Positions 50,881 to 63,458 of a DNA stretch of 64,000 bases are shown in pieces (position 1 is the stretch's first letter; the number at the start of each line of letters is the position of its first letter). The notes beneath the pieces were generated by a model, which searched no databases, was not told the DNA's origin, and saw only the letters and a list, made by a program, of their open reading frames with translations. Made by a program: the position numbers and the translations under genes. Origin of the DNA: Psychrobacter sp. Choline-02u-9 (lineage in GTDB: Bacteria > Pseudomonadota > Gammaproteobacteria > Pseudomonadales > Moraxellaceae); the NCBI RefSeq assembly GCF_002836505.1, contig NZ_PJBF01000058.1, positions 1 to 64,000 of the forward strand, read 5' to 3'.

Positions 50881-50903
50881 AAAAAAAGGCCCACAGAGGG
50901 GGT
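50881..50903. repeat. Left attachment site (attL) of the integrated element
   Basis: A7 followed by GGCCCACAGAGGGGGT. The 15-base part GCCCACAGAGGGGGT matches the right end (63444-63458, GCCCACAGAGGAGGT) at 14 of 15 positions, and both are preceded by A7-G. The left copy cannot form the sRNA terminator hairpin (no TGTGGGC follows). Confidence 0.75.
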
Positions 50904-50997
50904 GCTTTCGGCATTATCAGACATTCTCTAATGTTATCCAAACCCTATGTATTATCTGGTTTACATGCTAATATCTATTATCTAGTGTTATCACAAC

Positions 50998-51041
50998 TGA
51001 CCACCATTTAGTTACATTATTGGTGGTCAAAGTGGTGGTCA
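50998..51041. repeat. Left arm-type repeats (TGGTGGTCA)
   Basis: TGACCACCA (inverted, 50998-51006) and two direct TGGTGGTCA units at 51021-51029 and 51033-51041, 12 bases apart. The same pair with the same spacing and orientation lies near the right end. Probably integrase arm or excisionase binding sites. Confidence 0.65.
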
Positions 51042-51081
51042 GGTTCTCATCTGTATAGATAGATAATAAAGGCGTGTAATC

Positions 51082-52416
51082 ATGGCAGCGTTAACAACTG
51101 ATACTCAGATAAAGAAAGCTATCAAAGAAGCGCAAGGGCAAAAGCGTGTCTATCACACTATTGGTGGGTATCAAGGTTTAAGACTACGCATGAGGGGTGG
51201 TTGTATCGAGTTTCAGCACCGCTACACGCACCCAATGACTGGCAAACGCAAGGAGATGACGCTCGGCCAATACCCCGCCTTGTCACTTGAGCAGGCCAGA
51301 CGCATGCACAACGACAATATGAGCATGCTTGCCAATACGATGGACCCAATCTCGCAGCGCGATAATGAACGAACCAAGCAAGCCGCTGCTATAAATAACA
51401 CATTCCAAGCCGTAGCTGATGACTGGCTATATGAGCAAACTAGTAACCCTGACCACCAACCGGCACCCAGTACCTTAACAAACATCAACAGCTACCTAAA
51501 ACCGTTAGTAACAGCTTTTGGCAAGTTCCCCGTTAGTGAAATTACCACTCAGCAAGTGCTATCACTATGTCGTGACATACAAAAAAACTATGTGCACAAA
51601 GGTAATCGCGTTAAACATATGGCACAGCGTATCTTTGCCCATGCTGTGTTAAAGGGCCTCATTGAGTACAATCCAGTGACGCAACTATCAGGTGCCAAAG
51701 CATTGAAGGCCACACGAACCAAGCACCATGCGTCACTGACCGATCCCAAGGACTTTGCTGTCTTACTAAGAGATATTGACCAGCTAAGCGATAAGCAGGC
51801 ATACAACAAAACGATACTCAAGTTATTAACACTGACCTTTGCCCGTGTAGGCGATGTATGCGCGATGCGATGGGCAGATATCGACCTGAACGCTAAGCAA
51901 TGGGTTTTTACACCTCAAAAGGGGCAGAGGCGTGAGGACATGGTAGAGAGTTTGGTTGTACCACTGGCGCCGCAAGCAATAGCAGTCATAGAGCAAATGC
52001 AGTCACTAACGGGTGGCTATGAGTATGTTTTCTATAACGGCAACCGTAAGAAAGGCCAATATCATGATCCGCAAGCAATCAATAAAGTATTAAACGATCC
52101 ATCTATGAATAGCGGTGGCATTGGTGCCAACTATGAGGGTAGAGGCTACAAAGAAGTGCACACGCCCCATGGGTTCCGTGCCAGCGCAAAAACCATGCTG
52201 ATGGAAAGACTAGGTTATGACGAGCTACTGACAGAGATACAGCTAGGGCACCAAATGCTTAACAAGTACGGCAAGGCGTATAACCGTATGCAAGCCGTAC
52301 CTGAACGAACGCGCATGATGACTGAATGGGCAAACTACTTAGATAATATTAAGGCTGGCAAGATTGACAACGTCATTCACACTAGCTTTAAACAACAAGC
52401 ACAAAAGCTGGGTTAA
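51082..52416 (+). CDS. int: P4-type tyrosine recombinase (integrase)
   Basis: This 444-residue integrase has an N-terminal arm-binding DUF4102-like domain (YHTIGGYQGLRLRMRGG, EMTLGQYPALSLEQARR), a SAM-like core-binding domain, and a catalytic domain with R255 (ARVGD), H363-x-x-R366 (HGFR), H390 (LGHQ) and the nucleophile Y400 (KAYNR). All residues needed for activity are visible. It stands at the left end of the element, pointing inward. Confidence 0.96.
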   Translation: MAALTTDTQIKKAIKEAQGQKRVYHTIGGYQGLRLRMRGGCIEFQHRYTHPMTGKRKEMTLGQYPALSLEQARRMHNDNMSMLANTMDPISQRDNERTKQAAAINNTFQAVADDWLYEQTSNPDHQPAPSTLTNINSYLKPLVTAFGKFPVSEITTQQVLSLCRDIQKNYVHKGNRVKHMAQRIFAHAVLKGLIEYNPVTQLSGAKALKATRTKHHASLTDPKDFAVLLRDIDQLSDKQAYNKTILKLLTLTFARVGDVCAMRWADIDLNAKQWVFTPQKGQRREDMVESLVVPLAPQAIAVIEQMQSLTGGYEYVFYNGNRKKGQYHDPQAINKVLNDPSMNSGGIGANYEGRGYKEVHTPHGFRASAKTMLMERLGYDELLTEIQLGHQMLNKYGKAYNRMQAVPERTRMMTEWANYLDNIKAGKIDNVIHTSFKQQAQKLG

Positions 52417-52528
52417 TGCTCAGCTAAACACTTTGCAAGGCTAGGGGTTGCTCCCGAACGACAGATATTCACACCCTTAAACTGTCACCGCCTTGCTCCT
52501 ATTTTTGCTTAAGGGTGTAGGGTGTGAT

Positions 52529-53713
52529 ATGAGCGTATTAGATGATGAAGTGTTTCAAGGGAAAAAATATATTCTCGCAGTTGATTTTATAAATCTAGCT
52601 GCCAGCACTACAAAAGATTATATAGATGATATAGCTTCCTATCTTGTTTTAAATAATTTTGATAAAGAAGTATCGTCTTATTCAATGGATAAATATTCGC
52701 GTGTCACTCGAGTTGAACGCAGCCAATCTCATGATTATGATGTTAATACTAGAAATTTTTTAGAGAATTGCCACTCAAAGGTAGTTCTTAGTAAGAGTAT
52801 TTCACTCCGCTTAATAAATGATTTAAAAGGGGACTTCTATTATTCCTATGAAGAGTTAGAGTCCATGAGGTGTATCAAAAAACTAAAGCTAGAACTGACT
52901 GCTGAAGCAGCTAGAGTAGTTAGGGACAAGGTAAGGAAATATGATGAGAATGAGATACATTTTATTTATCGAAAGCCTATAGATAAACCTGAAGAGCCTA
53001 ATGCATGGCAATTAAATTACTTCAAGTTAGAAAAGTTTGATATTAAAACCGCGGCTTGCTTACTTGCTGGTATAGAAGTACGTCTGATAGATCAACATGA
53101 AGGCGAAAGTTTATTCGCGGAAGTATTCGCTGATTATATTAGCTATAAACTGATGTTTGAGTTGGCTATAGATAACAACGAGGTCAGTTTCGATGATGAT
53201 CTTATTAAATCTGAAGATTTACAGAAATATCTCTTCAGGATTGGTTATGTTCTCAAGGGTTTCAATGACTGGTTGAGAATTGAGCCAGCAAAACCTTTGG
53301 TAGATGTTCAATTACCTGTTATAGATTCTAGCTTGCCAAAAACACCAAAAGTGGACCATGATGAGTTTACAGAAAAATATGAAGTGCTTAAGAAGAAGTA
53401 TGAAAGCTTAGAAAAGGAGTTTGATAAAATTCAGAAGCAACTTACAAATGCTACGGTTGAGCTGGATGACAATACTGCCGCAAGTTATCAGACAACTATA
53501 GGTATATTGTTGGAAATAATGAAAGCGCCAAAAGGAACAGAAGACAAACCAGCATTTCCTAGCGAAGCTGCCATCATTGGGTTAGCTACTGAAGAAGCAA
53601 TATTCCGTCAAGGTAAAACATCTTTAGAAAATCGTTTTGGGGCAGCAAAAGAGGCGCTGGCCAATGAAAGAAAAAAACCGCATAACCTCAAGAGAAGTTC
53701 GAACTCACGTTAG
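52529..53713 (+). CDS. Hypothetical protein with C-terminal coiled coil
   Basis: This 394-residue acidic protein has no recognised domain. Its last third holds a coiled coil (KYEVLKKKYESLEKEFDKIQ) followed by a helical segment ASYQTTIGILLEIMKAPKG and FRQGKTSLENRFGAAKEAL, a C-terminal arrangement I associate with uncharacterised proteins of Moraxellaceae islands. The ATG at 52529 with AGGGTG upstream is preferred over the TTG at 52493. It is AT-rich and lies between integrase and the Q-like gene; it may be cargo. Confidence 0.75.
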   Translation: MSVLDDEVFQGKKYILAVDFINLAASTTKDYIDDIASYLVLNNFDKEVSSYSMDKYSRVTRVERSQSHDYDVNTRNFLENCHSKVVLSKSISLRLINDLKGDFYYSYEELESMRCIKKLKLELTAEAARVVRDKVRKYDENEIHFIYRKPIDKPEEPNAWQLNYFKLEKFDIKTAACLLAGIEVRLIDQHEGESLFAEVFADYISYKLMFELAIDNNEVSFDDDLIKSEDLQKYLFRIGYVLKGFNDWLRIEPAKPLVDVQLPVIDSSLPKTPKVDHDEFTEKYEVLKKKYESLEKEFDKIQKQLTNATVELDDNTAASYQTTIGILLEIMKAPKGTEDKPAFPSEAAIIGLATEEAIFRQGKTSLENRFGAAKEALANERKKPHNLKRSSNSR

Positions 53714-53819
53714 TGTGTCATGATTCTAGTTGCTGTACGTACTGGAGCGACTCATCAGTTATTAAGATGTGAAGCAATGAGCAAACTAATTTTACATCCG
53801 TATTTTTTTGGATCTTTGT

Positions 53820-54233
53820 ATGATTGATTTCGGCGTAGAAGTACAGGAGTTGCTGACAGCATGGGGTAACTGGGTGTTGGCAGAAGGCAACGGTTTAGGA
53901 TATTCAAGTCCGATGGCTAGTCTAATGCGTGGACATGTTGTAGAGAAAAGCAAAGTACGTTCTGCTATGTTTCTCACTGATGACGAAGCACTAAAAGTAG
54001 AAAGACTAGTAACCATTTTATGCGAATGTAAACCCTTAGAAGGCAAGATTTTAAAGCTAAAATATATTGACCGTATGAGCACCAATGGCATAGCAGAGTA
54101 TTATCTAACGCCGCTCAAGTATGGCAAGGATAGCGTTAACAAAGTGAGCTCGCATACCGCTGTACAGCATATAGCACGTGCTGAAGGATTTATCGCAGGT
54201 TTAATAGTTGGCCAAACAAGGTTAAGCCACTGA
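53820..54233 (+). CDS. Phage antitermination protein Q-like
   Basis: This 137-residue protein has LLTAWGNWVLAEGNGLGYSSPM, FLTDDEALKVERLVTIL, a basic segment and a C-terminal helix-turn-helix-like region (NGIAEYYLTPLKYGKD..., HTAVQHIARAEGFIAGL). This resembles lambdoid Q-type antiterminators / late regulators (Phage_antitermQ), though similarity is judged by eye. The ATG at 53820 is chosen over the TTG at 53808. It directly precedes the first operator block, so it may control the gene downstream. Confidence 0.6.
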   Translation: MIDFGVEVQELLTAWGNWVLAEGNGLGYSSPMASLMRGHVVEKSKVRSAMFLTDDEALKVERLVTILCECKPLEGKILKLKYIDRMSTNGIAEYYLTPLKYGKDSVNKVSSHTAVQHIARAEGFIAGLIVGQTRLSH

Positions 54234-54316
54234 CGCTACACTGCCAATAATAAAGCGGCCATACTTTAATAAGTGCGGCTTTTTTAATGCTAAGTAAATA
54301 ACTAGGCATAAACTTG

Positions 54317-54380
54317 CATCCCAATTAGGGCATAGCTTCACCCTAGTTAGGATGCCCATAATACAGGCTTGAGCCATACT
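54317..54380 (+). promoter_or_regulatory. Operator block A: two CAYCCYARTTAGG sites and CATACT
   Basis: Two 22-base-spaced sites (starts 54317 and 54339), with CACCCTAGTTAGGATGC at the second, then 18 bases and CATACTGATAAC at 54375. The same architecture recurs at 57406-57469. The second site covers the -35 position for a -10 at CATACT, suggesting an activator-dependent promoter for the 723-residue gene. Confidence 0.6.
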
Positions 54381-54445
54381 GATAACCTCAATCAACGTTA
54401 GTTTCAATCTGAAAACTTGAGCTAACAACATCATAGGTGGTAATT

Positions 54446-56617
54446 ATGGCAGCCGTATCTAAAGCAGCAGTGCAAAAGATTGTAGATAAGTATCGTAAGG
54501 CAGGGCTTGGCGACCAAGAGATCGCCATTAAGCTACTCAAACGAAAAGATAACGTAGGCAAAAACCTACAAACAGCCGTTGAAAGGTATCAAGAGGCGGG
54601 ATCACAAACACCCCTTGAGGATGTTATGGGTATGTTTAACCTGAACCCAAGCCGAGCGAAAGGCAGCCGTGTCGCAGGCCAATCAAGCCCCAATGCATCA
54701 ATAGGCGATAAGCTAAGCTCATACGCAACAAGTGCCGCGATGGGCTTGGCTGATGCAGGCGCAGGCATCGTGCAGATGAATAAACAATTTGCAGATAAAG
54801 CTAACACAGTCGCTAACAGCGTACTTGGAACAAATCTAGATACCAATGCAGCAGGTCGCTATAACAAAGAGTATGAGCAAGCAAATTTAGCCACTGATGG
54901 CGCTCGTTCGGTTGCAGGTCGTGACGGTGGCGATTGGGTTCGCGGTGGTACTGAGATTGCGGCGACTTTGCCAATTTATGCAGGTAGTCGTGGTGCTTCT
55001 TTAAGTGCTCGAATGGCTGACCAAGGCGTGAGAGGTGCAGCAGTTGGTGCAGCTCAATATGCAGACGATACAGATGATAGACTGCTTAATATGGGCGTAG
55101 GCGCAGCAGGTGGTGCTATCGGTCAAGGTGTTGGTGAGAAAGTCGCTAGCGCAGTCGGCAAAGGCGTAACGAAGGCGGTCAACGCTAAGAACGGTCGCCT
55201 TGCACCAGCTTACAAAGAGATTGACGACTTAGGCAAGCAGTTTGATGTTAGAACGTCCGTTGGCGATATCAAAGGCGGCGGCGTTATTAAGAACACAGAA
55301 ACTCATCTCGAGCGCATACCAATAGTAGGTATGGGCAAGTTTAGAGAAGGGCAACACAGTCAAGCGAAAGTCGCATCACGTAAAATCACCGGTAAACTTA
55401 AAGCTGTTATGGCTGACACAGACTACAAGGCATTGCCAACTATCAGACAAGCAGCCGCAGCAGGTGATAGAAACGCAGCGCGTGTGCTGAACATCGTTGA
55501 GACAGCAGGTGACGACACAGGGCGCGTACTACAAGCGAGTGCAGAGGTTCGCGCCTTCCGTGAGGGTAAGATTGCATCAAGATTGTATGACAAAGTAGAT
55601 GAAGCAGTTGTAGCGAGTGGCAACGACATTGTTACGCCTACCAATACGCAGTCAGCACTAATAAAAACGCTTGATGAACAAGCGGCATCTTTATCGCCTG
55701 ATGATGTTATTGTTCGAGAGCTCACAGGCATACAAGCCAATTTAGCGGATGCAGCCAAACCGAAAGACTTTGCTAATATGCGTCAGTTGCGATCAAGACT
55801 TGGTAATCTTGCAAGTGAGCTAGGGATAAGCGGAAAAGGTGCGGCATCAAAAGCTATCGGTGACTTGCGACAAGCGGTCGACGATGATATAGCAGCCTTT
55901 GCGCTTAACTCAGGTAACGCAGGTATCAAAAAAGCCTACCAACGTGCAGACAAGTTTTATAAGAATGCAATGAAGCGTGCGGACAAGGCTATTGCCAATG
56001 CAATGGATAGTAACAAGCCCGATGAAATTTACAAAGCATTTATTAAAACAGGTCAAGGCGATAGAGCTAACAACTTCTATCGAGCATTAGACCCAAAAGG
56101 GCAAGCGGCATTGCGTTATCAGATGGCTGACCAGGCTATCAATAAGGCCACAAATGAAAGTACAGGTAGTTTCAGCCCTGCCAACTTCGCAAAAGAATTT
56201 GAGCGATTGAGTGATCCATATAGCAATATCTTCAAAGGTGAAGACAAGAGGCAGATGGACGGACTAGTTAAACTCATGCGACACGTTGAGCGTGCAGGTC
56301 AATACAAAGAGAATCCACCAACAGGAGTAAGACTGACTGATATTGCTATGGTTGGTGGTGTCATGTCCAATCCAATAGGAACCGCAAAAATTGCAGGGAT
56401 GGCAGCACTAGCTAAAACGCTACTAACCACCAACGCAGGCAAAAACCTACTGCTAGCAGCTAACAAACTACCGGAACACAAACAAGTTGCATTGGATAAT
56501 CTACTAAAGATGGCAGCTAAACTGTCAGCGGCGGCAGGTGCCAAGACAGGTCAAGAAGCTAATAACAGTGTAGCAGGCACGAAAATTGCCAATAATGCAC
56601 CGCTAACATCGTTCTAA
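54446..56617 (+). CDS. Ala/Gly-rich phage-like protein (possible ejection/internal virion protein)
   Basis: This 723-residue protein is of no recognised family. A helical N terminus (VQKIVDKYRKAGLGDQEIA) leads to long Ala/Gly-rich stretches (for example VGAAGGAIGQGVGEKVASAV), a coiled central part and a C-terminal hydrophobic helix pair. Such composition is seen in phage internal virion, DNA-ejection or tail-associated proteins. No protease, capsid or portal motif. AGGTGG precedes the ATG at 54446. Driven by operator block A. Confidence 0.65.
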   Translation: MAAVSKAAVQKIVDKYRKAGLGDQEIAIKLLKRKDNVGKNLQTAVERYQEAGSQTPLEDVMGMFNLNPSRAKGSRVAGQSSPNASIGDKLSSYATSAAMGLADAGAGIVQMNKQFADKANTVANSVLGTNLDTNAAGRYNKEYEQANLATDGARSVAGRDGGDWVRGGTEIAATLPIYAGSRGASLSARMADQGVRGAAVGAAQYADDTDDRLLNMGVGAAGGAIGQGVGEKVASAVGKGVTKAVNAKNGRLAPAYKEIDDLGKQFDVRTSVGDIKGGGVIKNTETHLERIPIVGMGKFREGQHSQAKVASRKITGKLKAVMADTDYKALPTIRQAAAAGDRNAARVLNIVETAGDDTGRVLQASAEVRAFREGKIASRLYDKVDEAVVASGNDIVTPTNTQSALIKTLDEQAASLSPDDVIVRELTGIQANLADAAKPKDFANMRQLRSRLGNLASELGISGKGAASKAIGDLRQAVDDDIAAFALNSGNAGIKKAYQRADKFYKNAMKRADKAIANAMDSNKPDEIYKAFIKTGQGDRANNFYRALDPKGQAALRYQMADQAINKATNESTGSFSPANFAKEFERLSDPYSNIFKGEDKRQMDGLVKLMRHVERAGQYKENPPTGVRLTDIAMVGGVMSNPIGTAKIAGMAALAKTLLTTNAGKNLLLAANKLPEHKQVALDNLLKMAAKLSAAAGAKTGQEANNSVAGTKIANNAPLTSF

Positions 56618-56708
56618 TTACTTGTTAGATATAGATTGCTTAAAGCACTTTAGTTTGGTTATAGTGCTTTTCAGGCATTATATTTTAACTACTACGCTGG
56701 AGAATAGA

Positions 56709-57320
56709 TTGAAGTCATTTTTAGTAAGACTACTTCAAGTCCTATGGATTATTGGATTCGCAGTTGTGTTAGGTGGTATTTTTGCCAATATTTCATCCTA
56801 CAATGAATTGCCTGCCGCGGTGTTCGGTGCATGTGCATGGCTCATTTTCTTTGCAGTAATTCAATACTTACTTTTTGCTACTCTTGATCCTAGGGCCCTA
56901 TTCGATGGCAGCATGATGCCTAACAATAAAGGCGGTATTACTAGAAGGTCTTTTGCTATTGGTATTGCTACTAGCTTGGCATTGGTAGTAATAAGCGGCG
57001 TTACAGCTAAGCTATATCTTACCTATCAAGATAATCAAAAACTTGAAGCTGGTAGTGATATTGATTTTTACAGCGAAAGACTTACAGAAATTACCTACCG
57101 CCATGACTTTACAGATTGCTACTACACTGAAGAGGACAAACCAAAGAAAGCTGATGTGCAGCAGATAGCTAAAAACTTAGAAAATCAAGGTGTTGTTGGA
57201 TTGAATATACTCGTAGAAATAGCAGATCGTAACGACAAAATAGGCGAAGCCTTTCGGTGTGCAATTAGGGAAGATATGAGTATTGATGAAATTGCAACGA
57301 TAGCCGGCATTGATTACTAA
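56709..57320 (+). CDS. Small membrane protein of the element
   Basis: This 203-residue protein has two N-terminal hydrophobic helices (about residues 8-27 and 33-60), a third at about 85-105, and a soluble C-terminal part with Cys. The TTG at 56709 is chosen because GGAG lies just upstream; a longer TTG form from 56622 has no ribosome binding site. Family not recognised. Ends with a terminator before operator block B, so it belongs to the block A transcription unit. Confidence 0.65.
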   Translation: MKSFLVRLLQVLWIIGFAVVLGGIFANISSYNELPAAVFGACAWLIFFAVIQYLLFATLDPRALFDGSMMPNNKGGITRRSFAIGIATSLALVVISGVTAKLYLTYQDNQKLEAGSDIDFYSERLTEITYRHDFTDCYYTEEDKPKKADVQQIAKNLENQGVVGLNILVEIADRNDKIGEAFRCAIREDMSIDEIATIAGIDY

Positions 57321-57343
57321 TAAACCAACTGTATCTTAAGAAC

Positions 57344-57376
57344 CAAAACCCACCCATTAATCGGTGGGTTTTTTCA
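57344..57376 (+). terminator. Intrinsic terminator inside the element
   Basis: A ten-pair stem AAAACCCACC/GGTGGGTTTT with an 8-base loop and T-run separates the two element transcription units. Confidence 0.9.
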
Positions 57377-57405
57377 ATTATATGTTCTCTTAATCGATCA
57401 ACTAG

Positions 57406-57469
57406 CACCCTAGTTAGGATGCGAACTCACCCCAACTAGGATGGCAGCCCGCTAAGCTTTTAGCATACT
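57406..57469 (+). promoter_or_regulatory. Operator block B: two CAYCCYARYTAGG sites and CATACT
   Basis: Sites start at 57406 (CACCCTAGTTAGGATGC) and 57428 (CACCCCAACTAGGATGG), 22 bases apart, then 18 bases and CATACTGATAAC at 57464. It matches block A in motif, 22-base repeat distance, 18-base gap and the following CTCA/TCAAATCAACG leader. It precedes the AlpA-like gene. Confidence 0.65.
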
Positions 57470-57518
57470 GATAACTCAAATCAACGCCAAGTAACGGCAT
57501 GACACAGGAGTTAGCAAT

Positions 57519-57749
57519 ATGCTAAATGTATCAAACAATCCGCAAAGCTCAACCCAATTGCATCCGCAAGGGCAGACACGTATTAAGACAGCAGCGTCCC
57601 TAGTAGGTGTTCATCATCAGACACTCCGTCGGTGGTGGAAAGCTGACAAGTTCCCAAGACCAATTGATATCAACGGCATTCTATTATTTAGAAATGCTGA
57701 CCTATTATCGTGGCTTGAACGCCAACATTCAGCTAGCAAGGGGGCTTAA
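57519..57749 (+). CDS. AlpA-family regulator (MerR-like HTH)
   Basis: This 76-residue DNA-binding protein has RIKTAASLVGVHHQTLRRWWKADKFPRP, an AlpA/MerR-type winged helix recognition region, followed by LLFRNADLLSWLER. AlpA proteins act as excision/late regulators in P4-like satellites and cryptic prophages. CAGGAG lies upstream of the ATG. First gene of the long overlapping cluster to 62006. Confidence 0.9.
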   Translation: MLNVSNNPQSSTQLHPQGQTRIKTAASLVGVHHQTLRRWWKADKFPRPIDINGILLFRNADLLSWLERQHSASKGA

Positions 57750-57751
57750 TC

Positions 57752-58033
57752 ATGACTACTACAGCCACCGGCCCAGTGACCAACCAGCCAGCACCTAAAA
57801 CACAGATTGACACTGTTAGAGCGCACCTGATGACAGGGGCAACAATCACTACTTGGGATGCTTACCGCCTTTATCAAATCACATGCCTAGCACAGCGCAT
57901 TCATGACCTAAGAACCGCAGGGCTAACCATTCAAAGCGAGATAGTCACGCACAATGACAAGCGTTTTTCGGTCTATTGGCTTGATGAGCAGACATTACTT
58001 GAAAGCGAACTATCTAACAGCGAGGGGAACTAA
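57752..58033 (+). CDS. Small HTH protein (HTH_39-like winged helix)
   Basis: This 93-residue protein has TVRAHLMTGATITTWDAYRLYQITCLAQRIHDLRTAGLTIQSE, which fits the winged-helix HTH_39 domain found in phage and satellite genes (parts shown: TITTWDAYRLYQI, LAQRIHDLRTAGL). It follows the AlpA-like gene by two bases (stop TAA to ATG), so translation is coupled. Probable DNA-binding regulator. Confidence 0.75.
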   Translation: MTTTATGPVTNQPAPKTQIDTVRAHLMTGATITTWDAYRLYQITCLAQRIHDLRTAGLTIQSEIVTHNDKRFSVYWLDEQTLLESELSNSEGN

Positions 58034-58321
58034 ATGAATAACCACCCTAGCATATCAATCGACACCCCAGCCAGCCGCTTAGTGACCGTGGATAGTCTGT
58101 ACTTACGTCTTATGTATGACCGCATACAGGACATTTACCGCGATACTGACCACCTAGCCACCGCGCTAGATGCTATCAAAACAAAAGATGAGGTTAGCCA
58201 AGGCGTTCTTGTGGCAGTCAAAGCCGCACTTTATGCCAATAGCGAGCTGGCAGGTATTGTTAGCGACATGTTTTGTGACCACGCATTACCGTACCAAGCG
58301 GAGGCAACAAGCCATGAGTAA
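58034..58321 (+). CDS. Small hypothetical protein of the element
   Basis: This 95-residue acidic helical protein begins directly after the previous stop codon and overlaps the next ATG by 8 bases. No recognised domain. Part of the tightly packed cluster downstream of operator block B. Confidence 0.7.
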   Translation: MNNHPSISIDTPASRLVTVDSLYLRLMYDRIQDIYRDTDHLATALDAIKTKDEVSQGVLVAVKAALYANSELAGIVSDMFCDHALPYQAEATSHE

Positions 58322-58595
58322 TAACGATCTAGTAAACGAAGTTATAGACAGGTTAAAAAATGAAGGGTTTTTGATGATAACTGATGAATTTATAGATCAG
58401 CTAATCATTACCCTACATGCTAACGTGACCGCCATTAATAGTCTGACTGAGATAGTAGAAGTAGAAAATAAAATGCTAGCTCTACGCGGTTCGCTACCTA
58501 CAGGTAGTAGGCAAGTAGATTCGCTTAAAGGATTGTCGACCCGAATAGCAGAAATCGCTTTTAACGTGGAAGGGGTGAGAGATGAGCAAAGATAA
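58314..58595 (+). CDS. Small hypothetical protein of the element
   Basis: This 93-residue protein begins at ATG 58314 with GCGGAGGC upstream and overlaps the preceding gene by 8 bases and the next by 14. It looks helical (FLMITDEFIDQLIITLHANV). No recognised domain. An upstream in-frame TTG (58170) is rejected because the region is coding for the previous gene. Confidence 0.7.
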   Translation: MSNNDLVNEVIDRLKNEGFLMITDEFIDQLIITLHANVTAINSLTEIVEVENKMLALRGSLPTGSRQVDSLKGLSTRIAEIAFNVEGVRDEQR

Positions 58596-59208
58596 GAAAA
58601 ACGACCTAACATTCTGTGATGTGGAGCACGATAGCCAGAATGTCACGAATTTGAGCCTTTATCATAAGAATTTGAGTGTAAATAGCCAAAATTTGAGCCT
58701 AAATGCTGCTATTTTGAGTCTTATTCGCAATATTAAAAATAGGGCCGTTAAATCAGCAGAAAGCACAAAAAACCACATGTTTTCTGGCGGTGGAAAAAAA
58801 GGATGTAACAGGGGAGATTACCCATTTTTAGGTAGTTTTTTGACATCTAGTAATAACGAAAACCATCGCTTTACAAGTCATGATAACAAGCGTTATCATA
58901 ACCCCACAACAAAACATTCAGCGGCAAAGCCAAGTCGTCAACCTTTGGCTATTTTTGTGTCTAAAACTGACCTGATTAACACCCAGAAAGTTACCACGGA
59001 CACAGATAACAACGTAATAAGTAGTAATCGTTATACCTATGGCACTGGACACAGTGACGTAAGTTATGACGGGATGAGTGAACCTAATAAAATACCCCTT
59101 TGGGGAAATAAGTTCCGCGGCCTGAATGCCGTTGTTGTAATCCCGTTTATACCCTTTTTTAAGCATACCCTCACACATACAAAACATTCAGGAGGCTATC
59201 ATGCCTAA
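58582..59208 (+). CDS. Hypothetical protein with heptad NLS repeats
   Basis: This 208-residue low-complexity basic/hydrophilic protein starts at ATG 58582 after AAGGGGTGAG. The part NLSLYHK-NLSVNSQ-NLSLNAA-ILSLIRN is a 7-residue repeat (DNA 58,647-58,730), which equals four 21-base units with TTGAG. The rest has no recognised domain. The frame may encode a protein, or the repeat may be a DNA site inside the frame. Confidence 0.5.
   Translation: MSKDKKNDLTFCDVEHDSQNVTNLSLYHKNLSVNSQNLSLNAAILSLIRNIKNRAVKSAESTKNHMFSGGGKKGCNRGDYPFLGSFLTSSNNENHRFTSHDNKRYHNPTTKHSAAKPSRQPLAIFVSKTDLINTQKVTTDTDNNVISSNRYTYGTGHSDVSYDGMSEPNKIPLWGNKFRGLNAVVVIPFIPFFKHTLTHTKHSGGYHA
58647..58730. repeat. Four 21-bp TTGAG repeats
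   Basis: TTGAG occurs at 58651, 58672, 58693 and 58714, exactly 21 bases apart, in units like GAATTTGAGCCTTTAT. The period is both two helical turns and seven codons, so it may be iterons for a replication protein or a heptad peptide repeat. Confidence 0.6.
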
Positions 59209-59782
59209 TTCAATCCGTACGACCTCAAACATTCAAACCACTACTAACAGCACACCAGCCACATTCAAGGCAGGTGATAGCGTGCTATGCCCGTCTGTGG
59301 GCTTTGCTGCTTACAAGCTATTCAATGATAAAGAATATGATTGTTTAGGCTTTACCCTCAACAGCAAAACATACCATTACCGAAATGACGGCAAAGTAAG
59401 CCGTGATGATGCCTTACCGTCACTATTCCATGACACGCCAGCAAACCGCCAAGCGATAGCCACGTTATACAATGGCAGCCAATCAAGCCAGCGCACCGTA
59501 ATAGACATAACCGAACCGAACGACAATGAAGTTATTGTTATGTCATCTTTTGAGTTATCAGATATTGCTTGTGACCTTGAGAGCGCAGCCGTTGTTATAA
59601 GTGACATTGGCAAGCTATTAGCACTCATTCACTATGAAAAAATAGAACCTCATGTTGCTATATCAATGGCACGCTTAACGCATGACACCACTGAAACATG
59701 GCACGAACTACTGCAAAGCCAGTTAGGTTCAATCAAAGAAACCCTAGCAATGACTCGTTACGGCAAGGAGGGCAGCCAGTGA
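59201..59782 (+). CDS. Hypothetical protein of the element
   Basis: This 193-residue protein starts at ATG 59201 with AGGAGGCT upstream and overlaps the previous stop by 8 bases. The N-terminal part (FKAGDSVLCPSVGFAAYKLF) is followed by a helical C-terminal half. No recognised domain. The cluster continues. Confidence 0.7.
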   Translation: MPNSIRTTSNIQTTTNSTPATFKAGDSVLCPSVGFAAYKLFNDKEYDCLGFTLNSKTYHYRNDGKVSRDDALPSLFHDTPANRQAIATLYNGSQSSQRTVIDITEPNDNEVIVMSSFELSDIACDLESAAVVISDIGKLLALIHYEKIEPHVAISMARLTHDTTETWHELLQSQLGSIKETLAMTRYGKEGSQ

Positions 59783-59892
59783 GAACCTACCCACCAAAAC
59801 AGAGCCGTAAGCACGCCAAGCGTAAAAGCTACTACAAGAAGTACAGAGCCACGCGCAAGCCGAACCAGTCACAAGCAAGGGGGAACGGATGA
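59779..59892 (+). CDS. Very basic 37-residue protein, GTG start
   Basis: A GTG at 59779 overlaps the previous TGA stop (GTGA) and has AAGGAGGG about 8 bases upstream, a near-perfect Shine-Dalgarno. It encodes 37 residues dense in Lys/Arg/Tyr (SRKHAKRKSYYKKYRATRK), and its TGA stop overlaps the next ATG (ATGA). A longer ATG frame from 59698 exists but has no such site. It may bind nucleic acid; unknown otherwise. Confidence 0.6.
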   Translation: MRTYPPKQSRKHAKRKSYYKKYRATRKPNQSQARGNG

Positions 59893-62006
59893 CCACCACA
59901 CCAACAGACACCCATGAAAAAGCCCACGCATTTAGCGCAGGCTTTGAAATGATAAGTAGATTTGATGCAGCCACACGGCAAGGGCTAGCAGATGACAATA
60001 TATTACTTAATCTTTATAACCTATGTGAGCAGTCATGCTCGCAAGATAAGCTATTGCACCTTGATAGCAATATTACCATAACCACAGGCTTTGATACAGG
60101 TAAGACAGTGCCCACAGCTGGCACGATAGGGTTAGTACTGAGCAGTAACCAAGATAAACCCGTCACCCTTGCCAGCATTACCGCCAACGGCAATCATGAT
60201 CCGTTAATCATTGACCGTATGCAGCCGTCCGCGTTGATCATTGGCACGTTAGATAGTGGTAATGAGCTTGTAGCGATTGATGACGCACTAGAGGACGTTG
60301 TAAAGCTGGCTTACTACCTCATAGCCGATAATGTCACGCTACTGGTAAGCCTTGATAAGCTGCTATTTAATAGCATGGTCAGTCACTTTGCCGAAATTTA
60401 TCCCGTGACTATCTTTACTACCTTAGATCAAAAAGACAAAGTTTGTAAGCCGTTCAAGGGCGAGAACGTCAAAGCCATTGTTACCAGTGATAGAAACGTA
60501 CTAGAGCATTTAGAGTATGGCAATCTAAGCTATAGAGATATATTAGCCCTTGATGATACAACCATACTCGATCTACAAGCTGAGATATGGGGCGAACCTG
60601 AACCATTAGCCAATGATCCTAGCAAACCCACACCATACCCAATAAATGCTTTCACAGGACTACTAAGGCGAGTTATTGAGTTAGTGGCGTACTACGCACA
60701 AGTGCCGCTTGCCATGGCAGGTCAGTGCGTTTTAGGGTCACTAGCACACATGGGGCAGCGGTTTATTGATGCACCTTTTGGTCATAGCCATATGGCAGCT
60801 TGCTTGATATTAATAACGGAAGGTGAAAGCGGTAGCGGTAAAACTCAAGCAATGGGCTTAACTCACTTCAAAATTAAAGAGTATGAGCGCCAGAAGTACG
60901 CTAGCTATTTAGATGATGTATCAACGTGGGAAAGTGATAAAGCTAGTTTAAAGGGTAAAGAGTTATCTACATTCTTAGATGAAAACCCAAGGCCGCAAAA
61001 TCCTAAGACATTATTTGATGATGCAACTATTGAGCCGATACTCGATAGGTTTATTAGTGGTGAAATGAGTAACGCATCGTGGACCACAGATGAAGCAGGG
61101 CAATTCTTCAATGGTCATACGATGACTGGTGACACTGCAGGCAGCGCATTGTCTGCAATTACTAAGCTATATAGTGATGGCGAAGTGTCTCGTTTACGCT
61201 CGCAAAAGTCTGCTTATGCCACACCGCAAACAGATGCACATGGCGTACGCATGACACTACTGCTACAAGGTCAACGGGTAGTGTTAGAGCAGGCATTAAC
61301 TGATCCATTGATGAATGGGCAGGGATTTTTAGCAAGGGCCTTAATTGCTTGTCCTGAAGACTTACGCGGTCAAAGAACTTGGGACGACGAGCAGCGCAGG
61401 AATGATAGCCCATATGATAATCCTGATTTGATCGCTTACTGGTCACGTTGTCATAGCTTGCTTGATCCGCTACCAGCTAGCCTACCCAATGACAGCACAG
61501 GCACACCGCAGCGTATCAAAATGCAGTGGGCAGATGGTGCAGAACAAGTCTTCTATAAACATATGCAGGCAATAGAGAATCGACAAGCACAAGGGCAGAC
61601 ATTGGAGTATTTAAAAGCGTATGCATCACGGATGGCAGAAAATGCTAGTCGTATAGCATCATTGATGGCGTTCTTTGATGAGCGCAAGGTAGTAACTATT
61701 GATGATATAACGCGCGCTTTTATGCTAGTGGAATACTCAACAGCCGAACGCTTGCGCTATCTTGATGCAACGCCAGCAGGTGAGCAGAACGATAGTGAGA
61801 AACTAAGTAGCTGGCTAGTCGATAAAGTGAGGGGTAAAAACCCACCTATATTGAATAAGTCATTTGTTACCCAAAATGCACCCAATGCACTAAGAGGCAA
61901 GAAGCTTAACGGTTTACTTGAAGACTTACAAAGTGTGGGACATATCAGGTTAGAAAGTGACGGGCGCAGGCGTTTGGTATGTATCAACCCTAAGCTGATT
62001 AATTAA
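59889..62006 (+). CDS. DUF3987 replication ATPase (YfjI-like)
   Basis: This 705-residue protein has a Walker A GESGSGKT at 312-319 (K318) and an Asp-Glu pair at 401-402 (TTDEAGQFF) suiting Walker B, with the DUF3987 context (VSRLRSQKSAYATPQTDAHG, LLLQGQRVVLEQALTDPL). Such proteins replace helicase-primase in satellites and islands. The N-terminal third has no recognised primase motif. Followed by an iteron-rich region, so it likely starts replication of the element. Confidence 0.88.
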   Translation: MTTTPTDTHEKAHAFSAGFEMISRFDAATRQGLADDNILLNLYNLCEQSCSQDKLLHLDSNITITTGFDTGKTVPTAGTIGLVLSSNQDKPVTLASITANGNHDPLIIDRMQPSALIIGTLDSGNELVAIDDALEDVVKLAYYLIADNVTLLVSLDKLLFNSMVSHFAEIYPVTIFTTLDQKDKVCKPFKGENVKAIVTSDRNVLEHLEYGNLSYRDILALDDTTILDLQAEIWGEPEPLANDPSKPTPYPINAFTGLLRRVIELVAYYAQVPLAMAGQCVLGSLAHMGQRFIDAPFGHSHMAACLILITEGESGSGKTQAMGLTHFKIKEYERQKYASYLDDVSTWESDKASLKGKELSTFLDENPRPQNPKTLFDDATIEPILDRFISGEMSNASWTTDEAGQFFNGHTMTGDTAGSALSAITKLYSDGEVSRLRSQKSAYATPQTDAHGVRMTLLLQGQRVVLEQALTDPLMNGQGFLARALIACPEDLRGQRTWDDEQRRNDSPYDNPDLIAYWSRCHSLLDPLPASLPNDSTGTPQRIKMQWADGAEQVFYKHMQAIENRQAQGQTLEYLKAYASRMAENASRIASLMAFFDERKVVTIDDITRAFMLVEYSTAERLRYLDATPAGEQNDSEKLSSWLVDKVRGKNPPILNKSFVTQNAPNALRGKKLNGLLEDLQSVGHIRLESDGRRRLVCINPKLIN

Positions 62007-62275
62007 CCTTAGCTATAACTTCGCTAATCTTAAAAAGCTGCTAAACTTGCTAAACTTTATATAGCCCTTGCCAGTCAAGGGCTTAACTTTAGGTAGTGCG
62101 CTGCTAAGCATTGCTAAACTTGCTAATCTATCGCTAAACTTGGCTAACTTTAGCGGAACTATAGCAAGTTTAGCAGAACCTTAGCAGGTACAATCTAAGC
62201 TACAGGCTATAAGTAATAAGGCTTACAGGAACTTTAGCAACTTTAGCGACTTTTTGTAGGTATAAAACTATATTG
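62007..62275. repeat. Iteron-rich candidate replication origin
   Basis: GCTAAACTT occurs at 62040, 62049, 62113 and 62133, its reverse complement AAGTTTAGC at 62166, with many variants (GCTAATCTT, GCTAACTTT, TTTAGCAACTTTAGC). About 12 copies in 250 bases, on both strands, just after the DUF3987 gene. Similar to P4-type ori/crr. Confidence 0.7.
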
Positions 62276-62370
62276 GCAGGCGTGAACGTCTGCCTTTTCT
62301 TATGTCTCTAGTAATTAAAGCATTGTTTATGTAGGGATAAATTAAACCATGTTATAATCAAGGTTATAAA

Positions 62371-62895
62371 TTGACTAATGATTTAGATAACAACCAGAGA
62401 TTAGACATGCCAGCAATTGCTATGACTCACAGCTTAGATGACTATCTTAAACTGAATATCTCACGCTATCGTGAGCAGCTGAGACAAGGCAACGCTCAGA
62501 GCATCGAATTCAATTACAGCTATCGAAGCAGTTCCTACCAATACTCTATCCAGTTATCTAAAACATCATGCAACTATGGCGGTCATCGCTACTGGTGGTT
62601 ATGTCCTAAATGCCATAAAAGAACATCAACTTTATATTGTGCTGGCTTATATGTTTGCCGTCATTGCATTGGCGCAAATTATGGTAGTCAGCTACAACAA
62701 CCGATAGACAGAATATTCAATCGTTTAAATACTCTTAGATCAAAGTTAGGCTGGCAACGTGGTGCTATTCATGGCATTGGATCACGTCCTAAAGGCATGC
62801 ACCACAGTACCTATATAAAGTTGGTTAATGAGTATGACAAGCTGAGTGCTGATGTATGGCAAGCGTCACTTGATAAACTAGGATGTACCAGATGA
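62371..62895 (+). CDS. Zinc-ribbon protein of the element
   Basis: This 174-residue protein has a four-Cys zinc ribbon (WLCPKCHKRTSTLYCAGLYVC then RHC, at about residues 76-98, in the GGHRYWW context) with an added Cys. I associate it with uncharacterised island proteins of Moraxellaceae. The start is uncertain: TTG 62371 with AAGG upstream or ATG 62407. Just upstream is a TATAAT at 62,353. Confidence 0.7.
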   Translation: MTNDLDNNQRLDMPAIAMTHSLDDYLKLNISRYREQLRQGNAQSIEFNYSYRSSSYQYSIQLSKTSCNYGGHRYWWLCPKCHKRTSTLYCAGLYVCRHCIGANYGSQLQQPIDRIFNRLNTLRSKLGWQRGAIHGIGSRPKGMHHSTYIKLVNEYDKLSADVWQASLDKLGCTR

Positions 62896-62904
62896 GGTTA
62901 ATAA

Positions 62905-63165
62905 ATGCGATTACCTGACTTGAACGACTTAATGCAAGATTTGCAGCTAGCTAAACAAATCGCTATCGATGAGCGCAACCCAAACGCTGTAGTTATAGCG
63001 ACGATGAGTCAAGCGAAGTTATTGTCCCTCGATAGACCAGTGATTAAAGATGTTGTTGCTGACGATGTGACTACTCTTAATGATCTTATTAGTGAGATAG
63101 TAAGCGATAAACAGAAAAGAGCCGCATTTAATGAAAGGCTTGAGTATGTCCGTAATGAGTACTAA
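62905..63165 (+). CDS. Small protein, possible terminase-small-subunit-like
   Basis: This 86-residue protein has LAKQIAIDERNPNAVVIATMSQAKLLSLD, a motif similar to the helical segment of some phage small terminase subunits (Asn-x-AV-x-AT-x-KAKLLGL). The rest is acidic. It follows the zinc-ribbon gene closely. The likeness is by eye and weak, so I keep it as a guess. Confidence 0.6.
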   Translation: MRLPDLNDLMQDLQLAKQIAIDERNPNAVVIATMSQAKLLSLDRPVIKDVVADDVTTLNDLISEIVSDKQKRAAFNERLEYVRNEY

Positions 63166-63364
63166 GAAGCTGATACGCTAACTGAATTAAACTAAATGGA
63201 TAGCTTCAACCTTTGAGCTATCCATTCTCTTCTCTGCGACTATACAAAAAAGATAACCCCAGATGTGGTGATATTTATTTTAAGTGTAGGTCGCTTTCTA
63301 CATTGTCAAAATCTGACATGCCAGCATAAAAGAAACCATATAAAAAAATAAAATTTTGAGCAAA

Positions 63365-63385
63365 TGGTGGTCAAATTGGTGGTCA
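63365..63385. repeat. Right arm-type repeats (TGGTGGTCA)
   Basis: Two direct TGGTGGTCA units at 63365-63373 and 63377-63385, 12 bases apart, matching the left pair (20 of 21 bases across both units and spacer). They lie about 60 bases inside the right attachment site. Confidence 0.65.
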
Positions 63386-63434
63386 ATTCAATATATAAAA
63401 ATATCAAACCTATATAAATCAACGCTTTACGGGT

Positions 63435-63458
63435 AAAAAAAGAGCCCACAGAGGAGGT
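63435..63458. repeat. Right attachment site (attR) of the integrated element
   Basis: A7 then GAGCCCACAGAGGAGGT, matching the left copy at 14 of 15 core bases plus A7-G. It coincides with one arm of the terminator hairpin of the minus-strand sRNA (AGCCCACA...TGTGGGCT), so the element rebuilds the terminator of its target. Confidence 0.75.

Follow-up and report, generated by a model that had tools for sequence, protein, structure and literature searches.

SaPI elements carry an integrase and are integrated, as is the element described here, and the alpha initiator helicase of P4 binds an origin with repeated short sites, a further likeness to our locus as interpreted below, although P4 differs in needing a second cluster, crr, besides ori. 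For SaPI, the accessible parts of the published work describe a Rep protein whose C-terminal domain reads iterons behind its own gene, and report that the C-terminal domain of SCCmec Cch2 bound the putative Cch2 origin (PMC7581432). In Gram-negative PICI the origin also lies behind rep, deletion of rep or ori impaired plasmid maintenance, and the E. coli elements have four Pri-Rep allelic variants (PMC6092414, from its accessible portion). The PICMI of Vibrionaceae combine an integrase and AlpA with a primase gene modelled by DUF3987/DUF5906, the deletion of which lowered copy number (PMC10803314, available in part). The replication role of DUF3987 has so far come from domain association and from this PICMI deletion, as far as the accessible text of the sources goes (PMC5862659, PMC10803314); the Pfam label is still 'unknown function', and no report tying DUF3987 to iterons or an origin was found in the literature searched, in part as excerpts and with most subscription journals outside the search.

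Here we analyse a 64,000-nt stretch of the genome of Psychrobacter sp. Choline-02u-9 (the window), in which a field of short repeats follows a DUF3987 gene. It resembles the SaPI rep-ori in that several short iterons lie directly behind the gene of an initiator with a C-terminal reading domain, predicted in our case; it is unlike SaPI in that those elements have, in the parts of the source available, DUF927 or D5-type helicases, AEP-type primases and staphylococcal hosts (PMC7581432). The same text offers SCCmec Cch2 as a parallel, with a C-terminal domain binding repeats behind its gene (again a prediction here), but with just three iterons, a D5-type helicase and a different host and element type. 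An iteron field directly behind the initiator gene occurs in the window and 38 further loci, and opposed repeat sets are present. With the Gram-negative PICI, as described in the accessible portion of PMC6092414, the element shares an integrase, an AlpA-type regulator, rep and a putative iteron origin behind rep, and the window contains an integrase, a MerR/excisionase-type helix-turn-helix protein and a specific attachment site. It differs in its four iteron groups over about 240 bp, its Q-like antiterminator and its 726-aa protein. PICMI are unlike it in that their type element measures 6,110 bp, lies next to fis and has no origin described in the text available (PMC10803314).

The integrated element

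The DUF3987 gene and its field lie inside an integrated element of 12.6 kb (about 50881 to 63457), which is satellite- or plasmid-like. All nine relatives read (L090-L098, the top-scoring matches) have an empty site at which the flanks overlap by 23-32 nt, and this overlap therefore defines the attachment sites (Table 1); in four of them (L090, L091, L092, L095) a small additional difference lies immediately left of it. Besides the integrase, the element encodes a helix-turn-helix regulator, named AlpA-like by analogy, another predicted winged-helix protein, the Q-like antiterminator and the 726-aa protein. Neither Pfam (15 open frames) nor PHROGs (10) gave a terminase in the element, and NCBIfam and PADLOC scans returned no match above cut-off.

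Three minor features accompany these genes. Repeats of TGGTGGTCAA near both element ends (51019-51030 and 63365-63386) are possibly integrase arm sites. A 23-nt direct repeat, 87% identical, lies upstream of the 726-aa gene (54375-54397) and of the regulator gene (57464-57486), perhaps as a common control site. The plus strand at 59068-59155, just upstream of open frame 59201, matches Rfam sRNA-Xcc1 with 46.5 bits (gathering score 53; E 5.6e-6).

Table 1. Features of the element and its repeat field, in window coordinates
Feature	Position	Strand	Evidence
Left attachment site, ~23 bp	50881..50903	unstranded	empty-site overlap; shared GCCCACAGAGG
Tyrosine integrase	51082..52416	+	PF00589 E 4.8e-13, PF13356, PF22022
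AlpA/MerR-like helix-turn-helix protein	57519..57749	+	PF12728 E 1.3e-6; phrog_66 excisionase and regulator E 3.9e-7
Further predicted winged-helix protein	at 57752		PF14090
DUF3987 gene, 705 aa, predicted initiator helicase (Rep)	59889..62006	+	PF13148 E 6e-44; phrog_2373 DNA helicase E 1.7e-35
Winged-helix tail, residues 635-705, predicted iteron-binding domain	61791..62003	+	AF2, VIA
Left cassette edge (break zone)	61823..61850	unstranded	breaks in cross-class pairs
GCTAA cores	62023, 62040, 62049, 62103, 62113, 62122, 62133, 62143	+	
TTAGC (GCTAA on the minus strand)	62009, 62150, 62170, 62181, 62234, 62243	-	
Outer left iteron pair TGCTAAACT TGCTAAACT(T), 9-bp period	62039..62057	+	
Hairpin AGCCCTTG...CAAGGGCT separating iteron groups	62063..62083	+	inverted repeat + alignment
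Central left iteron group, 5 GCTAA	62103..62147	+	
Central right iteron group, 3 TTAGC	62146..62185	-	
Outer right iteron pair, TTAGC at 62234 and 62243	62230..62247	-	
AT-rich block around TAGGTATAAAACTATATTGGCAG	62249..62279	unstranded	AT 0.69; alignment of loci
Terminator-like hairpin GGCAGGCG...CGTCTGCC, then TTTT	62275..62298	+	read in sequence
Right attachment site, ~23 bp	63435..63457	unstranded	empty-site overlap; shared GCCCACAGAGG

Architecture of the repeat field

The field adjoins the stop codon of the DUF3987 gene on its downstream side. An earlier sequence-only reading had placed it at 62007-62275 with about 12 copies on both strands, in two opposing clusters. Its coordinates were off by no more than a few bases and its count by a few copies: between 62000 and 62290 there are 14 GCTAA cores, all within 270 bp, 8 on the plus and 6 on the minus strand, against 5 in the densest 270-bp stretches found outside the field when the whole window was counted. 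Five of the six exact copies of GCTAAACTT in the window, and eight of the nine of GCTAAA[CG]TT, fall within it, and over the 300 nt that start with the stop codon the repetition of 7-mers stands 9.5 s.d. over dinucleotide shuffles. The opposed orientation holds as well, in the form of an inverted symmetry: most plus copies lie to the left of about 62146 and most minus copies to the right, with the minus copy at 62009, on the far left, as the exception, and 62032-62255 aligns to its reverse complement with a 69% match (E 1.8e-15). The clusters, however, number four rather than two, namely an outer pair and a central group on each side, with a period of 9 bp within both outer pairs and of 9-11 bp within the central left group.

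To the right of the last iteron lies an AT-rich block, kept in most aligned loci of repeat classes A, B and C (defined below), and conservation usually stops just past it. It is a candidate for both the unwinding element and the right edge of the exchangeable cassette discussed below. In many relatives it is among the three least stable 30-mers, though not in the window, and a stability scan pointed to no unique location for an AT-rich melting site; the stretch 62190-62229 is 62% AT, and in many loci less stable stretches sit outside the iterons. The hairpin that separates the iteron groups is followed by a T run in many class B and C loci and is terminator-like there. An RNA reading of the field was considered and rejected, since its sole Rfam match, AaHKsRNA41, reached 23 bits where the gathering score is 97 and was judged to be due to chance.

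Repeat classes in related loci

We compared 45 loci carrying the gene: the window, 16 loci in named genomes (all Psychrobacter, at 55-83% identity, which marks the window as Psychrobacter chromosome), one viral contig, two plasmids and 25 others, with L063 dropped from the 45 as a copy of L010. Repeat classes were assigned by counting k-mers in the first 330 nt after the stop codon, before the tails were aligned. Repeats stand behind the gene in 39 of the 45 loci, the window counted, and fall into four alphabets: GCTAAA (class A, 10 loci, including L065, which has a tail with a shortened field only), GCCTAA (class B, 9), GCTTAA (class C, 11, including L015, where 91 nt are followed by the contig end) and GGAAAG (class D, 9); L015 and L065 are thus only partial. 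Across 38 loci, the motif of a locus's own class averages 5.9-10.8 copies per 270 bp, against 0-0.5 for the motifs of other classes, and 36 of 38 fields exceed shuffled sequence by more than 3.5 s.d., L057 and L065 falling below. The positions of the groups are nearly equal across classes A, B and C despite their different letters.

Six of the 45 loci stayed unclassed (L059, L061, L062, L064, L083, L088). In L083 a B-like tail goes with scattered GCCTAA-type repeats; behind the D-like tail of L088 come GGGAAA repeats and then unrelated sequence; and in L059 a D-like tail with an altered end is followed immediately by unrelated sequence. In L065 (5971-6225) we observed an isolated 84-aa open frame corresponding to the class A winged-helix tail alone, then the shortened class A field, in all appearance a left-over cassette.

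The two plasmids, pA52P5 (L052, 13,177 bp) and pA37P2 (L053, 10,345 bp), are complete and circular, have a class C field and carry much the same genes, pA37P2 without that of the 726-aa protein; close relatives of the element thus occur outside the chromosome. Each also carries a RepM replicon preceded by direct repeats of its own, apparently giving two origins per circle, and RepM may be what maintains them. A search of the literature by plasmid and strain name, with most subscription journals outside its reach, found nothing on either.

Matches confined to the N-terminal part were set aside, except for eight loci read separately (L066-L073). Four of these (L066, L067, L069, L072) encode proteins of about 845 aa that have the N-terminal 230 residues in common with the window protein, the core of L066 being DUF927, and have TGTCCCAAG repeats behind the gene. 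Three more (L068, L070 and L073; 639-758 aa as read) have TGTCAG repeats behind the gene, and the protein of L070 ends in KGTDKTDKTDW, which suggests iterons within the coding sequence. No repeats were seen behind the gene of L071, read singly.

Predicted structure of the DUF3987 protein

A Walker A motif, GESGSGKT, can be read in the protein. In an AlphaFold2 model of the window protein, built with 16 relatives, confidence is good for the N part and the tail and poor for the core (mean pLDDT 63). In this model, residues 10-234 superpose on DnaG primase (Z 9.6, 5.3 A, 212 aligned), residues 256-623, mostly in the low-confidence region, on MCM AAA+ helicases (Z 10.8, 5.5 A, 183 aligned), and residues ~630-705 on winged helices (Z about 9). 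The DnaG and MCM matches are tentative because middling Z scores are common with this structure aligner, and we describe the N part as DnaG-like and the core as MCM-like with that reserve. Modelled alone, the tail is predicted to fold as H-E-H-H-E-E, with block pLDDT of 83-92 across fragment residues 31-105, and aligns with winged helices, including those of ORC and MCM, at VIA Z up to 8.9 (2.5-2.8 A, 69 aligned). By sequence, no significant relative of known structure was found, nor any relative among 50,697 phage records at E 1e-5.

Covariation of tail and field

Trees of the core (residues 231-640) and of the tail (residues 648-705, 58 residues) were compared on 35 rows, with L010, L065, L016 and L017 left out. 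The repeat classes require 10 changes on the core tree and 3, the minimum possible, on the tail tree; the latter is weakly resolved, with 7 of 32 branches starred, and bootstrap values for a single origin of the class are 78% for A, 60% for B and 30% for C. Over 414 pairs, which leave out D versus non-D pairs, L015 and L065, pairwise identities correlate at rho 0.84 between tail and field, 0.25 between core and tail, 0.19 between core and field and 0.04 between the field and the sequence downstream. Six of the 58 tail columns separate A, B and C, against none of the 417 columns in the core and none of the 230 in the N part, counted on the rows of those 414 pairs minus L016, L017 and L010 with its tail piece. 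The six are residues 657, 662, 674, 676, 679 and 688; in the predicted tail fold, five of them lie in the second and third helix and one in the strand preceding the wing. Other genes of the element follow the class poorly: on their trees it requires 16 changes for the integrase (36 rows), 17 for the winged-helix gene at 57752 (31 rows) and 10 for the gene at 58034 (20 rows). Some class clustering exists on the integrase tree, where 4 of 200 shuffles gave an equally low count.

The edges of the covarying segment are sharp. Counted from the last base of the stop codon, similarity breaks between -183 and -156 in all ten cross-class pairs with core identity of at least 85%, immediately behind a conserved GEQNDSEKLSSWL; these pairs amount to three switches, one each among A (L077), B (L007) and C (L054). 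On the right side, of 56 same-class pairs whose fields are similar, 50 drop under 70% similarity past the field. Exchange also occurs within a class, as in L008 and L013, both C, with 98% identity in the core, 71% in the tail and 75% in the field, and none of the 39 classed loci (L010 judged from its tail piece) joins the tail of one class to the field of another. From the changes on the trees, the pair identities, the break edges and the diagnostic columns we conclude that tail and field behave as one exchangeable cassette. The winged-helix tail, as modelled, is the most likely reader of the iterons.

A proposed replication origin and its alternatives

Could mere adjacency have produced this pattern, with tail and field co-travelling and the letter classes carrying no binding specificity? 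The two are contiguous, cassettes have been swapped within a class too, and the edges date only three independent close switches. We nevertheless regard this as unlikely, because the sharp cassette edges (left breaks confined to 28 nt in every close cross-class pair, similarity mostly lost past the field) would argue against mere hitchhiking, the copies within one field share a single alphabet, and no classed locus mixes tail and field classes. Plasmid iteron arrays often serve origin and control together, which lends some plausibility to an operator or copy-control site, at which DUF3987 or another protein of the element would bind for regulation while initiation occurs elsewhere; the terminator-like behaviour of the intra-field hairpin in other classes and the presence of another predicted winged-helix protein at 57752 would fit such a role. 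That protein, however, does not track the class, the field lies behind its gene and not upstream, and no alternative iteron cluster that might serve as the real origin was found in 37 loci, where the own-class motif does not exceed 6 copies per 270 bp outside the field (5 in the right 24 kb of the window). The tested Gram-negative PICI with the same layout, moreover, has its origin behind rep, according to the available part of PMC6092414, and we therefore hold a purely regulatory site to be very improbable.

That the repeats are instead a centromere for partition or a pac/cos site for packaging seems scarcely credible. TubR, a partition winged helix, is among weak Foldseek matches. Repeated sites behind a replication gene can indeed be centromeres, but Pfam models of ParA, ParB and TubZ found no match in the element's 15 open frames. 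For packaging, where the site might be shared with a helper phage, a weak counter-argument comes from IMG/VR, where the class A 19-mer double iteron matches six viral contigs, always inside open frames (in L137 a frame of 85 aa), with no DUF3987 relative near these six matches at E 1 in the stretches compared, and where the class C 19-mer has no match; a search with the tail alignment returned only the viral contig already among the 45 loci.

An origin served by the DUF3987 protein accounts for these observations better. The anatomy matches the rep-ori of SaPI, Gram-negative PICI and SCCmec Cch2, and for this reason we interpret the field as an origin that the winged helix reads. Given what was computed directly, that is, the presence of the field, its conserved place, its classes, their covariation with the tail, the cassette edges, the predicted winged-helix fold and the integration, the best explanation as a whole is, with high probability, that the field is the origin of the element, DUF3987 its initiator helicase, and the winged helix the iteron-binding part of a swappable cassette. 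The origin proposed in the sequence-only reading is thus supported by the 39 of 45 loci with repeats, the covariation with the tail and the 9-bp repeats of distant loci (below). Conservation in related elements, on which that proposal was to be judged, largely extends to position, spacing and symmetry and often fails for the letters. Its assignment to the P4 type finds no support, since no second, crr-like cluster occurs in the 37 loci scanned and the helicase core looks MCM-like in a low-confidence part of the model; the rep-ori of SaPI and Gram-negative PICI, with its origin immediately after rep, is a better model.

How might such an origin work? The element would first excise from the chromosome, and the C-terminal winged helix would then bind the 9-bp iterons in both opposed orientations, which, by analogy with SaPI Rep, could load two helicase assemblies. 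An AT-rich stretch would melt, perhaps around the stop codon or in the conserved block that follows the last iteron on the right, and host polymerases would presumably copy the circle, both replication and its direction being suppositions. The bidirectional origin suggested in the sequence-only reading would have its ground in the symmetry of the field. Winged helix and iterons would together constitute a heritable specificity cassette; recombination would exchange it between related elements as one segment, reaching from the conserved end of the helicase core to the neighbourhood of the conserved AT block.

DUF3987 loci across the phylum

A further 72 DUF3987 loci from the phylum of the window, the best-scoring among the matches listed rather than a random draw, were scanned, the window's own copy (L124) having been excluded beforehand; 64 of the 72 could be evaluated, the other eight having short or open frames or too little DNA behind the gene. 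Repetition of 7-mers more than 3.5 s.d. over shuffles was found behind the gene in 27 of 64 cases, in front of it in 6 of 59 and inside it in 7 of 268, and three or more 6-mers recurring at a distance of exactly 9 bp occurred in 38 of 64, 2 of 59 and 9 of 268, respectively. The next spacing, 18 bp, was seen in 15 of the 64 windows behind the gene. The first 9-bp-spaced repeat lies at a median of 50 nt from the stop codon; 26 of the 64 distant loci have no 9-bp signal. Among five loci from the plasmid collection read singly, repeats are clear in Legionella, Paracoccus and Pseudomonas and weak in two E. coli records.

A simple recognition code valid across the phylum was considered and rejected, as the tail predicts the repeat letters no better than the core: over 38 distant loci (703 pairs), partial rho with repeat similarity is 0.09 for tail identity, a value reached in 14 of 999 permutations, and 0.20 for core identity. 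As a separate observation, L147, L149, L153 and L175 have the same repeat, TGTCAGTTC, with tails 33-38% identical.

We give about even chances to a broader proposition: that DUF3987 helicases are a large family of self-recognising initiators, whose 9-bp iterons some 50 nt behind the stop codon and winged-helix tail swap together, so that one recombination event resets origin specificity. A field of 9-bp repeats behind a DUF3987 gene would give a simple origin finder for many satellites and islands that are still uncharacterised. The natural classes, on a nearly identical core, would be a ready-made set for how a winged helix reads iterons. A cassette swap would perhaps also reset the compatibility of elements sharing one cell, and the same set of classes would be useful for asking whether origin type decides which elements share a cell. 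In five Psychrobacter genomes with two classed elements, the pair belongs to different classes in three and to the same class in two.
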